Positions 1 to 4,618 of a DNA stretch of 36,712 bases are shown in pieces. Source of the DNA: Aquificaceae bacterium (GTDB lineage Bacteria > Aquificota > Aquificia > Aquificales > Aquificaceae). The notes under the pieces were generated by a model, which saw nothing but the letters and a program-made list of their open reading frames with translations, had not been told where the DNA came from and did not search any database. The DNA lies in contig JANXBA010000001.1 in assembly GCA_025062075.1 (NCBI GenBank), positions 1 through 36,712 on the forward strand. The letters run 5' to 3'. Every line of letters begins with the position of its first letter. Within the stretch, counting starts at the first letter, position 1. Made by a program: the position numbers and the translations under genes.

Positions 1-2024
1 TCCAGCTGGTTAGGGTTAGGCTCTCCCACAAAGTGCTTGTCTCCGTTCTTGCCCCTCCAACCCGCTAAAGCTCCCACTCCCGGTCTTATCTGCCAGTTTA
101 TTAGAAAGTCCTTAAAGTCTTTGTATTTCCTTGAGCCGTCGGGGTTTAGGAAGGCTGGGAGTTTTAACCTCCAGCCCAGCTCCACCATCACATCGCCCCA
201 GCCCTTCACATCGTAGCCGTTAGCTACTGGGTCTATTATGGGATGTCTGAGAGCGTCCACAGGACCGTCTACTGCAGAAGGTGGTCTGTCAAGCAAAGAA
301 AGGGCAAACCACTGCTCAAGGTAGGTAGCATCAGGAAAGACCAAGTCTGAGTAGGCTACCTGCTCGCTGTAGAAGGCATCTATGGTTATAACCTTCGGGA
401 TTACGTAGTTACCCGCAGGGTCTGTGGCGGTAAGGGCTTGTATTATGTAAGGAATGTTTTGAGAAGAGTTCCAAGCCATGTTAGCCATGTAAATCATCAA
501 AACCTCAATACCGTAAGGGTTCTGCTCGTAAGCGGCGGGTATGACGTTGTGTATAAGACCGTGGGCGGTAAGGGGAAACCACCAGCTGTATGCGTGGTCT
601 ATTCTCACAGGATTGCCCTTCTCATCCACCAAAAGGTCGTCGGGGTTTTGAGGATAGCCCAAGTGTGGTCCCGGATAGACTTCGCCGTATTTTATGGCAT
701 CTGGTCTTGTTATCTTGTAAGGCTTTGGAAGGTCTTCTATGTGTTTAGGATAGGGTGGTTTGTTCAAAAAGCCTCCGGGCACATCCACTACGCCCAGCAT
801 CATCATAAGAAGAAAGACCGTCCTCGCACTCTGAAAGCCGTTGGTGTGAGAAGCTACCCCTCGCATCATGTGAAAAGACACAGGTCTTCCTATAACCTTT
901 CTGTGCTTTCTTCCCCAAACGTCGGTCCACTCTATGGGTAGCTCTATGGGATGATACAGAGCGATAGTGCCCATCTCTTTAGCTATCCTCTCTATATCCT
1001 TTGCGGGTATGCCGGTTATCTTTTCTACTTTCTCTGGGCTGTAGTCTTTTACCAGCCTCTCTGCGAATATGTCACAGGCGGGTCTTACTCTGTAGCCCTC
1101 TGGTGTGGTAAACTCACCTATAAATGCTGGTTCAAGACCATCCGGCACTATTCTGTCTGCGGGCTTGAAAGACTGAGACTTTTTGTCATAGACCGTGGGT
1201 TTTCCTTCTTCGTTTCTGTAAAACAGACCATCCTTTGAGGTACCGGGTGCTTGAATTACCAACCAAGGTGCGTTCGTGTATTCTTTCAAAAAGTCCCAGT
1301 TTACAAGGTTGTATTTAAACAGCGCGTGCATTATGCCCATAAAGAAGGCGCCGTCCGTGCCCGGCTTTATAGGCACCCACTCGTCCGCTACCGCACCGTA
1401 GCCCCAACGCACTGGGTTTACCACCACAAACTTACCGCCTTTTCTTTTCATTTCCTGAATGCCCAGCTTGAAGGGGTTGGAAGAGTGGTCCTCCGCCACG
1501 CCTATGAGCATAAAGTACTTGGTGTTTTCAAAGTCCGCCTCACCAAACTCCCAGAAGGAACCACCTATGGAATAAAGCCCTGACGCAGCTATGTTTACGG
1601 AGCAAAATCCTCCGTGCGCCGCCCAGTTTACGGTGCCGAGCTGAGAGGCAAACCAGCTGTTTATCTGCTGCATCTGGTCTCTACCGGTGAAGAAGGCTAT
1701 CTTCTGGGGTCCCTTTTTTCTGGCCTCTTCCAGCCACTGAGCAGCAATCTGAAAGGCTTCTTCCCACTCTATTTCCTTGAACTGGCCTGAACCTCTTGGT
1801 CCAACTCTCAGAAGGGGCTTTCTGAGCCTTGCAGGGCTATACTCTTTCATTATTCCGGAAGAGCCCTTAGCACACAGGACGCCTCTGTTGGTGGGATGGT
1901 CGTCGTTGCCCTTGATGTAGGTAACCTTGTTGTTTCTAACATATACTTCTATACCGCACCTGCAGGCACACATGTAGCAGGTGCTGTATGCCTTGCGGTC
2001 ATAAAAGCTACCACCTATCTCCAT
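1..2024 (-). CDS. soeA: Molybdopterin oxidoreductase, SoeA-like cytoplasmic sulfite dehydrogenase subunit A (3' end cut by window)
   Basis: Catalytic subunit of a DMSO-reductase-family enzyme, most like SoeA, which oxidises sulfite to sulfate in the cytoplasm and passes electrons to quinone through iron-sulfur (SoeB) and membrane (SoeC) subunits. About 674 residues are visible; the C-terminus lies beyond base 1. The N-terminus carries the 4Fe-4S motif C16-x2-C19-x3-C23-x27-C51, with an additional Cys at 21. The segment around AAHGGFCSVN (C141, a plausible Mo ligand) and GVAEDHSSNPFKLG resembles SoeA as I remember it. There is no twin-arginine signal peptide, which argues against the periplasmic PhsA/PsrA/TtrA relatives. 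Start ATG 2024 is set by AGGAGG at 2031-2036. The SoeA assignment within the superfamily is inference; a formate-dehydrogenase-like role is the alternative. Confidence 0.8.
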   Translation of the reverse strand, partial: MEIGGSFYDRKAYSTCYMCACRCGIEVYVRNNKVTYIKGNDDHPTNRGVLCAKGSSGIMKEYSPARLRKPLLRVGPRGSGQFKEIEWEEAFQIAAQWLEEARKKGPQKIAFFTGRDQMQQINSWFASQLGTVNWAAHGGFCSVNIAASGLYSIGGSFWEFGEADFENTKYFMLIGVAEDHSSNPFKLGIQEMKRKGGKFVVVNPVRWGYGAVADEWVPIKPGTDGAFFMGIMHALFKYNLVNWDFLKEYTNAPWLVIQAPGTSKDGLFYRNEEGKPTVYDKKSQSFKPADRIVPDGLEPAFIGEFTTPEGYRVRPACDIFAERLVKDYSPEKVEKITGIPAKDIERIAKEMGTIALYHPIELPIEWTDVWGRKHRKVIGRPVSFHMMRGVASHTNGFQSARTVFLLMMMLGVVDVPGGFLNKPPYPKHIEDLPKPYKITRPDAIKYGEVYPGPHLGYPQNPDDLLVDEKGNPVRIDHAYSWWFPLTAHGLIHNVIPAAYEQNPYGIEVLMIYMANMAWNSSQNIPYIIQALTATDPAGNYVIPKVITIDAFYSEQVAYSDLVFPDATYLEQWFALSLLDRPPSAVDGPVDALRHPIIDPVANGYDVKGWGDVMVELGWRLKLPAFLNPDGSRKYKDFKDFLINWQIRPGVGALAGWRGKNGDKHFVGEPNPNQL

Positions 2025-2089: not shown

Positions 2090-2114
2090 AGTTTATAAGC
2101 AACACTCATTGATG

Positions 2115-3329
2115 TCATAAAGGTGGCTTATACCCACTACGCAGGTACTCGCCCACGGTGAGGGCGAAGTAGGTCAGAAGCCAAGCAAGTATCGCCAGGG
2201 CAACGGGGATGAACACTATGGTAACGAAGGCCAGAACCGCTAAGGTAACTCCAACTGTGAGCACGAGCCACAGATACATGGCAAGCTTAAAGTACTTGTT
2301 GCTAAAGGCATCTTGGAAGCCCTTTGGTGTAAAGGGAAAGAAGGCGGCCATAAAGCCAGCCTTGAAGTCAAGACCCTCCAGTACGGTTCTTGCGTAAACA
2401 AGTGGTAGCGTATAAAGGTAGTACAGGAACACGAGCACCAAGACCAGCACAAGCGCAAGCATAGAAGAAACCACGCCGGACCACTCCCCGTATTCTTGAT
2501 GGTCTTTCATGGCGAAGTCGCTGATAAGGCCGAGCCCACCGAAAAGAAGGGCAAGAGCGACTAAGATTATAAGGCCCACCAAAAGCAGAACGACCCCACC
2601 CACGTAAATGCCCAAGGCAGGGACGAAGTAGTCCCACAGCTTGGAAAACTGCAAAGGATTTCTTCTGCTTTGTCCGCTTGCGTAGTGAACCGCCATATAC
2701 AAGATGCCCAAGTACGAGTAAAGACCAGAAAGAATGCTAAAGAAAAAACCAAGAATTGGAACTGCGGACAGAACTGCGATAAACAACCACAGGAACATGT
2801 ATGCAGAGAAAAAGCCCACGTTTTTCTTCAAAAGTTGCCAGCTGTTGGAAAAAAGCTGTGCGTCGTCCTCAGAACTGCCAACGGAAGGCACCCCTTCGTA
2901 AACCACCCTAAAGCTGAAAAAGGGGTAGGTTTGTTGGTGTTTTAGTATGGTCTTTGCCTTCTCTTCATCGACTTCTACTAACACTTCCTCGCCTTTCATA
3001 AACTGCTCTTTGCAATTTTCTAATCCAAAACCTATCAGGCCTGAGAGTATGCTACAAGCAAGGTTTGGAGAAACGTCTTTACCGACCAAGGCTACGACTA
3101 ACCGCACCTTGCCTACATTTTCAACCAAGTCAACAGACATAAAACCGTACCTTTTAGTAGCCTGCTTTAGCTTTTCATAACTTTCTGCGTCAAGCTCCAA
3201 CTCAAGAAATCCCTTTTCTTTTAAGACGCTTTCGCAGTTTTCTGGAAGAAAACCAAGAATACCAAAGACTAACTTACACAGAAAATCCAAAGGAACATCC
3301 TCTGAAGTAGGCTTTAGTTTCACCTTCAC
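2115..3329 (-). CDS. Membrane protein with two tandem N-terminal L7/L12-CTD-like domains
   Basis: A 404-residue protein I cannot name. Residues 1-70 and 74-142 are an internal duplication. Both copies have a Cys near the start, a LGF/IGF-x2-ENC segment, an acidic strand with LELD or VEVD, and a closing aromatic strand (YGFMSVDL, YPFFSFRV). The pattern GFGLENCK followed by VEVDEEKAKTIL resembles the C-terminal domain of ribosomal protein L7/L12 (ClpS/L7-L12 fold); this is inference. From about residue 165 to the end there are roughly six hydrophobic membrane segments, loosely like uncharacterised DUF975/DUF4013-type proteins. Start is GTG 3329 with a G-rich but weak ribosome site, 17 nt after a good -10. 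It lies upstream of soeA on the same strand, but nothing shows a shared function. Confidence 0.75.
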   Translation of the reverse strand: MKVKLKPTSEDVPLDFLCKLVFGILGFLPENCESVLKEKGFLELELDAESYEKLKQATKRYGFMSVDLVENVGKVRLVVALVGKDVSPNLACSILSGLIGFGLENCKEQFMKGEEVLVEVDEEKAKTILKHQQTYPFFSFRVVYEGVPSVGSSEDDAQLFSNSWQLLKKNVGFFSAYMFLWLFIAVLSAVPILGFFFSILSGLYSYLGILYMAVHYASGQSRRNPLQFSKLWDYFVPALGIYVGGVVLLLVGLIILVALALLFGGLGLISDFAMKDHQEYGEWSGVVSSMLALVLVLVLVFLYYLYTLPLVYARTVLEGLDFKAGFMAAFFPFTPKGFQDAFSNKYFKLAMYLWLVLTVGVTLAVLAFVTIVFIPVALAILAWLLTYFALTVGEYLRSGYKPPL

Positions 3330-3375: not shown

Positions 3376-3392
3376 GGAGGTTGCTCGTGTGA

Positions 3393-3412
3393 TATACTTT
3401 TGTTGCAGGAGG
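3393..3412 (+). promoter_or_regulatory. Candidate -10 and ribosome site of SAM synthetase
   Basis: TATACT at 3393-3398 is followed after 8 nt by AGGAGG at 3407-3412, 6 nt before GTG 3419. If used, the leader would be only about 14 nt. No clear -35 is seen. The ribosome site decides the start at 3419. Confidence 0.45.
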
Positions 3413-3418
3413 TTTGCG

Positions 3419-4618
3419 GTGGCTAATGTGGTCATCACCCCTATAACCTTCAAACCCACCTACGAGCTGGAAGCGGAGATAGTGGAGCGAAAAGGGATTG
3501 GACATCCTGATACGATTTGCGACTATTTGTCGGAGAACCTGTCTCGGGAGCTCTGCACTTGGTACTTGAAAGAGTACGGTGCAGTGATGCACCACAACGT
3601 AGACAAGGCACTGTTGGTAGGTGGCGTGGCCAGGGCGGAGTTCGGAGGTGGTCAGGTGATAGAGCCCATAGAAATCTATCTGGTAGGCAGAGCCACCCTA
3701 GAAAAGGGGAGCAAAAGGCTGGATGCCCACGAGCTGGCGGTAGAGACCACCAAAAAGTGGTTGAGAGAAAACCTACGGAACCTTGACGTGGAAAACCATG
3801 TAAGAATTCACACGAAGATAAAGCCGGGAAGCAAAGACTTGGTGGAGCTCTTTGAGAGGTTTAAAGACGGAGAGGTGCCTCTGGCGAACGACACCTCCTT
3901 TGGAGTGGGTTACGCCCCTCTGGACTCCCTCGAGAGGGCAGTCTTCGAGGCGGAGAGGTTTCTCAACTCAGAGGACATGAAAAGAGAGCATCCTGAAGTG
4001 GGTGAAGACGTAAAGGTCATGGGCGTTCGCATAGGAGACAAGTTCAGGCTCACCATAGCCCTTGCCTTCGTAGGCAAGTACGTAAAAGACTTGGAGGACT
4101 ACTTCCACAAAAAGCAGGAGATTCACCACAAAGTAAAGCAGAGAATAGAAGGCCTCATAGGTCAGCAGGTGGAGGTTTTCATAAACACCGCAGACAGCAG
4201 GGAGCGAGCCTCCGTCTACCTCACTGTTACTGGCACCTCCGCAGAGCAGGGCGACGACGGGCAAGTAGGCAGAGGCAACAGGGTAAACGGCCTCATCACA
4301 CCCTACAGACCCATGAGTCTTGAGGCTGCGGCGGGCAAAAACCCCATATCTCACATAGGCAAGATATACAACCGCGTGGCTAACCTCATAGCCCAACGGG
4401 TGGTCCAAGAGGTAGAGGAGGTGGAAGAGGCCTACTGCTACATCGTCTCTCAGATAGGTAAGCCCATAAACGAGCCACAGGTGCTGGATGTTAGCGTAAG
4501 AAGCAGAAAGAGCTTAGAGCTCCTCCGGGAACCTCTCAAGAAGATAGCGGAGGAGGAGCTGGAGAAGATGCCCGAAGTTTGGAAGGGCTTTGTGAGCGGT
4601 CTCTACTCGGTAGCCTAA
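3419..4618 (+). CDS. mat: Archaeal-type S-adenosylmethionine synthetase (methionine adenosyltransferase)
   Basis: Makes S-adenosylmethionine from methionine and ATP in the cytoplasm. The protein is about 399 residues, the usual length of the archaeal MAT family, and is not the bacterial MetK type. Family motifs include GIGHPDTICD near the N-terminus, an FGGGQVIEP segment, TSFGVGYAPL and a C-terminal ISQIGKPINEP stretch. An upstream in-frame ATG at 3389 exists, but GTG 3419 is chosen because AGGAGG sits 6 nt before it and because the family starts near the VVITPITF strand. It is divergent from the membrane-protein gene and followed 18 nt later by nuoA. Archaeal MAT in a bacterium is rare and is a lineage clue. 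Confidence 0.93.
   Translation: MANVVITPITFKPTYELEAEIVERKGIGHPDTICDYLSENLSRELCTWYLKEYGAVMHHNVDKALLVGGVARAEFGGGQVIEPIEIYLVGRATLEKGSKRLDAHELAVETTKKWLRENLRNLDVENHVRIHTKIKPGSKDLVELFERFKDGEVPLANDTSFGVGYAPLDSLERAVFEAERFLNSEDMKREHPEVGEDVKVMGVRIGDKFRLTIALAFVGKYVKDLEDYFHKKQEIHHKVKQRIEGLIGQQVEVFINTADSRERASVYLTVTGTSAEQGDDGQVGRGNRVNGLITPYRPMSLEAAAGKNPISHIGKIYNRVANLIAQRVVQEVEEVEEAYCYIVSQIGKPINEPQVLDVSVRSRKSLELLREPLKKIAEEELEKMPEVWKGFVSGLYSVA

Follow-up and report, generated by a model that had tools for sequence, protein, structure and literature searches.

Two N-terminal domains with a predicted ClpS/L12-type fold on a six-helix membrane protein of some Aquificota

The stretch of DNA analysed here (the window) comprises 36,712 nucleotides and is the entire contig C7 of a 1.25 Mb genome that is 99.7% complete. 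On its minus strand, at positions 2115 to 3329 and exactly where the original prediction had placed it, lies a gene for a membrane protein of 404 amino acids, defined by the ORF call together with homologues, whose GTG start falls in the same alignment column as the ATG of the homologue L003. The protein opens with repeat 1 (residues 1-73, positions 3111 to 3329, minus strand) and repeat 2 (residues 74-146, positions 2892 to 3110, minus strand), and continues, in the AlphaFold2 model, with an amphipathic helix and a six-helix membrane part (residues 154-397, positions 2139 to 2870, minus strand). Its neighbours are the 5' part (674 aa) of a SoeA-like molybdopterin oxidoreductase gene, cut by the contig end (positions 3 to 2024, minus strand), and a divergent gene at 3389 to 4615 that encodes an AdoMet synthetase of Pfam PF01941, which we take to be the archaeal type. 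A Pfam scan of the 404-aa protein returned nothing over cut-off, and a PDB sequence search gave four weak matches up to E 10, none of them relevant. In NCBIfam, residues 160-386 weakly match the BPSS1780 family (NF041043) at E 8e-7 and 28.5 bits versus a cut-off of 90, and 0/136 genomes of the phylum score above NCBI's curated cut-off for this family.

The N-terminal tandem repeats are almost certainly a real duplication. The ungapped alignment of residues 1-73 with 74-146 pairs two units of 73 amino acids, and their Smith-Waterman score is 74, versus a shuffled mean of 24.7 (sd 4.8) with 0/2000 shuffles as high. The other two-repeat homologues (L002, L003 and L004) give repeat-versus-repeat scores of 83, 70 and 67, again with 0/2000 shuffles as high in each case, and the profile-profile comparison of the four first with the four second repeats yields a probability of 98% and an E of 8e-15. 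The shuffled self-comparison and the profile comparison thus bear out the visible duplication that had been noticed at the N-terminus, although a recount gives the region 146 rather than 142 residues. A phylogeny calculated from 18 copies of the domain groups the four second repeats in one clade with support of 100/97, that of L004 being a long branch. The first repeats are not monophyletic: on a midpoint root, used for display, that of G035 comes next to the second repeats (91/90). G040 has a single domain, which sits in an open fork with first repeats and single domains. The simplest account, we infer, has one duplication before the split of genus g1, to which the window belongs, from genus g6, and a loss in G040.

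A domain profile built from 19 rows (A3) finds 22 copies in 16/136 phylum genomes at E below 1e-20, the next match being at E 0.003, and 22/22 copies sit in frames of this membrane-protein family, some of which are truncated at a contig end or interrupted by a break in the frame. Across the genomes of the phylum that were searched, the domain is restricted to the family. Carriers are 4/14 genomes of g1, 2/7 of g2, 9/17 of g3 and 1/1 of g6, with 0 in other genera, and two repeats occur in 4/16 carrier genomes (G000, G038, G041 and G035). The window protein itself matches 28/136 phylum genomes at E 0.01, several by chance, and profile A1 matches 30/136 at E 0.001; among these family members are relatives with the membrane part only, found in family f5 and a few genomes of f1, so that the domain either was acquired by its carriers or was lost in those relatives. 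Judged by eye from the translations, the weak A3 matches in G053, G054 and G055 (glycosyltransferase-like) and G114 (FliF-like), and the weak window-protein matches L021 and L024, were dismissed as chance. A contig search beyond the phylum with the window protein found nothing, and none was found in the viral contigs searched. The same search with the g3 alignment A2 returned 10 loci, 10/10 of them in records named as Aquificaceae or Aquificota MAGs, which answers the suggested search for the architecture across Aquificota; the A2 patterns derive from close g3 rows, and distant relatives outside the phylum may therefore exist. In seven g3 genes (L007-L010, L012, L013 and L029), a -10-like stretch, TAGAATTT or similar, lies no more than about 15 bases upstream of the start, as would be seen with leaderless messages.

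The repeats probably adopt a ClpS/L12-type fold, as judged from structure prediction. The AlphaFold2 model of repeat 2, built with an alignment of 19 rows, reaches a pLDDT of 90.8 and a pTM of 0.76 and shows a strand at 2-9, helices at 16-27 and 34-39, a strand at 44-49, a helix at 50-58 and a strand at 66-73; the full-length model (pLDDT 88, pTM 0.63) gives both repeats the same element order, which we take to be that of ClpS and the L7/L12 C-terminal domain (CTD), beta-alpha(2)-beta-alpha-beta. With a second structural aligner, ranks 1 to 23 among the 50 matches listed for repeat 2 are all ClpS (many structures from about five species). Their Z values run from 8.1 down to 6.9, which the aligner grades as middling, and the alignments cover 72-73 of the 74 residues; rank 24 is an unrelated protein at Z 6.5. 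Best scores of 7-8 are, by the aligner's own warning, usual for models without a clear match, a range that common arrangements also reach. Foldseek places ClpS2 first (E 0.012), a designed minibinder second (E 0.026) and an L7/L12 CTD (2zjq_5) seventh (E 0.051), with RRMs and a pro-carboxypeptidase domain interspersed with ClpS among the next-ranked matches, and gives no match at E 0.001. For the whole model, the second aligner finds ClpS at Z 8.0 on repeat 2 and L12 (3j9y_7) at Z 5.5, and Foldseek alone lists RRM proteins first and ClpS at rank 22. Repeat 1 has no ClpS among the matches listed for the whole model, where each entry is shown once, at its best, and its best listed match is PBP2 at Z 6.2; its fold is accordingly assigned only by the element order in the model. 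The proposed likeness to the L7/L12 CTD or ClpS therefore holds as an element order for both repeats and, in the models, as a structural resemblance to ClpS for repeat 2.

At the level of sequence profiles, the Pfam models for ClpS (PF02617) and L12 (PF00542) do not match the window protein up to E 10, nor 19 family members up to E 1. The domain profile against the ClpS profile gives 0.43% and 0.56%, neither significant, the latter in an alignment that spans both from end to end and keeps register apart from a gap where ClpS helix 2 ends, and against L12 it gives 2.3% and 1.6%, again not significant, over 11-12 columns out of register; reversed controls lie at 0.09-0.14%. Profile comparison does not point to descent of the domain from ClpS; since the test is insensitive, with ClpS and L12 themselves reaching only 1.4% and 3.4% and the target profiles being narrow, it could miss a common descent with ClpS/L12. 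The idea that the repeats recruit translation GTPases in the manner of the L12 stalk, one of the roles first proposed for them, could draw on the L12 structural matches above, on raw profile scores slightly higher to L12 than to ClpS (2.3% versus 0.4% and 1.6% versus 0.6%) and on the single-domain rows, which reach 5.5% and E 0.007 against the L12 profile. However, the L12 profile alignments span 11-13 columns out of register, the GFGLENCK turn occurs only in the window's repeat 2 among the 19 domain rows, ClpS fits the fold better, and an ordinary L12 is present in 60/61 genomes, and we regard such a role as very improbable.

An adaptor function would fit the better structural match. Anchored in the membrane, the twin domains might, where a lineage has no ClpS, deliver substrates in or near the membrane to a Clp unfoldase: ClpS is absent in 29/29 genomes of family f1 searched, including 4 of the 16 carriers, and present in 10/61 phylum genomes, all of family f2, and Clp_N proteins are found in 132/136 genomes, including the window's own. 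However, the His that we take to form the N-degron pocket of ClpS, located between helix 2 and strand 2 and visible as IH or VH in the ClpS sequences compared, aligns to the gap in the domain-ClpS profile alignment, and none of the 19 domain rows has a conserved His in this stretch (one row has an unaligned H). In addition to the missing PF02617 match, the domain occurs in just 16 of the 136 genomes while nearly all have Clp_N, and no Clp gene was recognised adjoining the membrane-protein gene. An adaptor of this kind is hence improbable, and we give equally little weight to the more specific scenario that in some Aquificaceae a duplicated ClpS-fold membrane adaptor has taken the place of soluble ClpS and supplies a Clp unfoldase with such substrates, a cysteine pair in some genera and an aromatic pair in another adjusting its contact face. 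As proposed originally, recruitment of ribosome-associated GTPases or protease adaptors finds no support in Pfam, in the profiles, in a conserved His or in the turn motif.

The window protein has exactly four cysteines, which fall in matching columns of the two repeats: Cys18 (3276 to 3278) and Cys32 (3234 to 3236) in repeat 1, and Cys92 (3054 to 3056) and Cys106 (3012 to 3014) in repeat 2, all on the minus strand. Across the 19 domain rows, the two places are C/C in 11/19 and F or Y at both in 8/19, with 0 mixed, and three further copies (L092, L115 and L116) are Y/Y; thus, the cysteines at matching positions, as first noted, are real but not universal in the domain. As the F/Y rows are all from genus g3, the joint change between C/C and F/Y may be a single event. 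That both places change together fits a contact or a shared patch, and the helix 1/helix 2 face carrying the pair could be the contact face of the domain; the Cys pair might form a disulfide or a metal site.

The about six membrane helices proposed to follow the repeats are confirmed in the full-length AlphaFold2 model, in which a helix at residues 154-169 precedes six long helices beyond residue 170. The best structural matches of residues 147-404 are CysZ, with Z 10.8 (199 residues, 4.5 A) and 9.2, PNS1 with 10.0 and CTL1 with 9.6, and for helical models a Z under about 13 may mean just a common helical arrangement. In our preferred reading, this is a polytopic inner-membrane protein whose core would adopt a CysZ or choline-transporter-like (CTL/PNS1) arrangement. 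A sequence comparison with E. coli CysZ was null (0.10% versus 0.17% for the reversed control), and the EI24 profile (PF07264) scores over cut-off in 0/136 phylum genomes, with none in the window's own genome; a family member (L006) matches it at E 0.0016, under cut-off, and EI24 matches to L136, L138 and L142 were dropped as chance, these being CdsA-like by eye from their translations. Identity to the window protein is 128/233 in the membrane part versus 31/70 and 31/73 in the repeats for G041, 90/229 versus 24/73 and 26/72 for G038, 76/231 versus 22/73 and 24/72 for G035, and 80/226 versus 27/64 in repeat 1 for G040, and the membrane part thus appears only modestly better conserved than the repeats. 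For the four two-repeat rows, loop charges agree with an N-in/C-in orientation, which suggests that both ends of the protein lie in the cytoplasm; in the g3 rows they are unclear.

In g1, the membrane-protein gene lies about 90 bases before a gene for a 947-aa molybdopterin oxidoreductase on the same strand in 4/4 carriers, namely the window, G038, G040 and G041 (in G041 the contig ends inside the oxidoreductase gene). The oxidoreductase is matched in 56/64 family genomes at E 1e-30, the weakest matches, with 33-35% identity, probably being other molybdoenzymes. In G036, G037 and others, the oxidoreductase gene is followed by small genes and then by genes for an Fe-S protein of 232 aa and a membrane protein of 336 aa. 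Compared with NCBIfam, the large subunit comes closest to PhsA, far under cut-off, and the Fe-S protein to NrfC, under cut-off, and the 336-aa protein has no match; we read this gene set as a possible SoeABC. SoeABC has been described in Aquifex aeolicus, in an account that hypothesises its catalytic subunits to be on the inner side (PMC8076601). Here one could speculate that the membrane protein is a CysZ-like sulfate or sulfite conduit, gated by the repeats and acting as partner of a SoeABC-like enzyme that makes sulfate in the cytoplasm, and the CysZ matches, the gene order in g1, the placement of the Aquifex enzyme and the EI24 match of L006 are supportive of this. However, CTL/PNS1 match equally well at Z values that a common helical arrangement may reach, and a likeness between CysZ and PNS1 at DALI Z 9.7 is itself called hard to reconcile with shared function in a 2026 paper (PMC13160678). 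In addition, the sulfate site of CysZ is described as containing the Arg of a GLR motif (PMC5967866), a counterpart of which, placed by eye, is absent in 13/13 domain-bearing rows, and the comparison with E. coli CysZ was null. The gene has other neighbours in g2, g3 and g6, and in G036, G037 and G045 an epimerase gene adjoins the enzyme gene without the membrane-protein gene that G038 and G040 have between them. We therefore consider the conduit unlikely.

An alignment of 8 genomes of the genus, of which four carry the membrane-protein gene and four lack it, shows the DNA upstream of the enzyme gene to be conserved in 8/8. Two imperfect palindromes close to TATAAG-N5-CTTATA precede the molybdoenzyme gene at window positions 2094-2110 and 2116-2132; they are spaced by 22 bases, and the second overlaps the stop codon of the membrane-protein gene. 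Both are conserved in the 8/8 same-genus genomes and partly in other genera. The window has 2 matches to the palindrome versus 0.19 expected, with 1/100 shuffles having as many, and the genome 31 versus 11 control matches, and these sites are a possible operator of the SoeA-like gene. The C-terminal YK[PS]xL that the four carriers share is explained by an overlap of the first TATAAG site with the stop and final codons of their membrane-protein gene. The molybdoenzyme gene is present twice in the genome (window 3-2024 and G000:C13:31344-34172); each copy lies at the end of a contig, and their DNA is 87% identical over 2016 bases.

In g3 (G009, G010, G023 and G020) the order is instead DHH phosphoesterase, endonuclease IV-like gene, membrane-protein gene and ARMT1-like phosphatase, and in all four the start of the ARMT1-like damage-control phosphatase gene overlaps the stop of the membrane-protein gene (L122, L123, L127 and L128); these families were tested in G009 and assigned by N-terminus in the others, and in G012 ORF calling kept overlapping frames. 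In G004 (L125:3172-3789), the membrane-protein gene overlaps the start of a gene for a 206-aa membrane protein without family match, perhaps a membrane-only relative. When the gene neighbourhoods were inspected, as suggested, in the window and L118-L128, no gene of the ribosomal stalk or of the Clp system was recognised immediately next to the membrane-protein gene; judged by eye, G038 and G040 have a RimM-like gene at a distance of some kb, and in G041 a GrpE-like gene is next and a LepA-like gene next-but-two, an arrangement not kept elsewhere. Neighbours thus differ between genera, and no single pathway follows from gene context.

Given that the domains are doubled in one lineage, absent in membrane-only relatives and cytoplasmic by charge, they fit docking or regulatory modules. 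We tentatively propose that a six-helix core, which also occurs without extra domains in other Aquificota, carries one ClpS/L12-CTD-fold domain at its N-terminus, that a single duplication made two in the g1 and g6 lineage, and that the twin cytoplasmic domains might dock a protein partner and thereby tether or gate the membrane domain, a role we rate at somewhat less than an even chance. Less probable, and rather doubtful, is a plain accessory membrane protein whose repeats are structural, serving oligomerisation or stability and binding no partner: the patchy occurrence (16/136), divergent sequences and differing neighbours would suit it, and L12/ClpS domains have been called multimerising (PMC7159879), but four genomes from two genera retain the duplicated copy with its Cys pair. 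Lacking the parts by which ClpS and L12 work, the domains leave the role of the protein a guess, for which docking or gating is our preferred reading.

The proteins best known for the ClpS/L12 fold are a soluble adaptor of proteases and the stalk protein of the ribosome. Repeat 2 resembles ClpS in predicted fold over nearly its full length, while the window's repeats differ from ClpS in being tandem and membrane-bound, without a profile match or a conserved His at the ClpS place; with L7/L12 they share the strand and helix order, but the protein has neither a profile match nor the L12 N-terminal part, and the turn motif is not kept. The membrane part is like CysZ/EI24 and CTL1/PNS1 in structural matches of Z 9.2-10.8 over residues 147-404, but has extra domains and, with regard to CysZ/EI24, neither sequence support nor the sulfate-site Arg, and its weak match to BPSS1780 stays far under cut-off. 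No described protein had been thought to share this layout, and among the papers listed by the literature searches none has a tandem ClpS/L12 domain on a polytopic six-helix protein; a membrane-tethered ClpS-L7/L12 domain is, however, already in print, in a protein described as having a single TM, an HTH and one such domain in its cytoplasmic part and as coupled to a Lipocone gene (PMC12419801). That protein shares the cytoplasmic placement of the domain and differs, by description rather than by sequence, in its one TM, one domain, HTH and other context. By prediction, then, the ClpS/L12 fold occurs twice in a six-helix membrane protein, so far only in some Aquificota, and if the twin domains bind a partner, this would be a modest and experimentally accessible example of a docking fold transferred to a CysZ/CTL-like membrane domain, a type over whose function there is published disagreement (PMC13160678).
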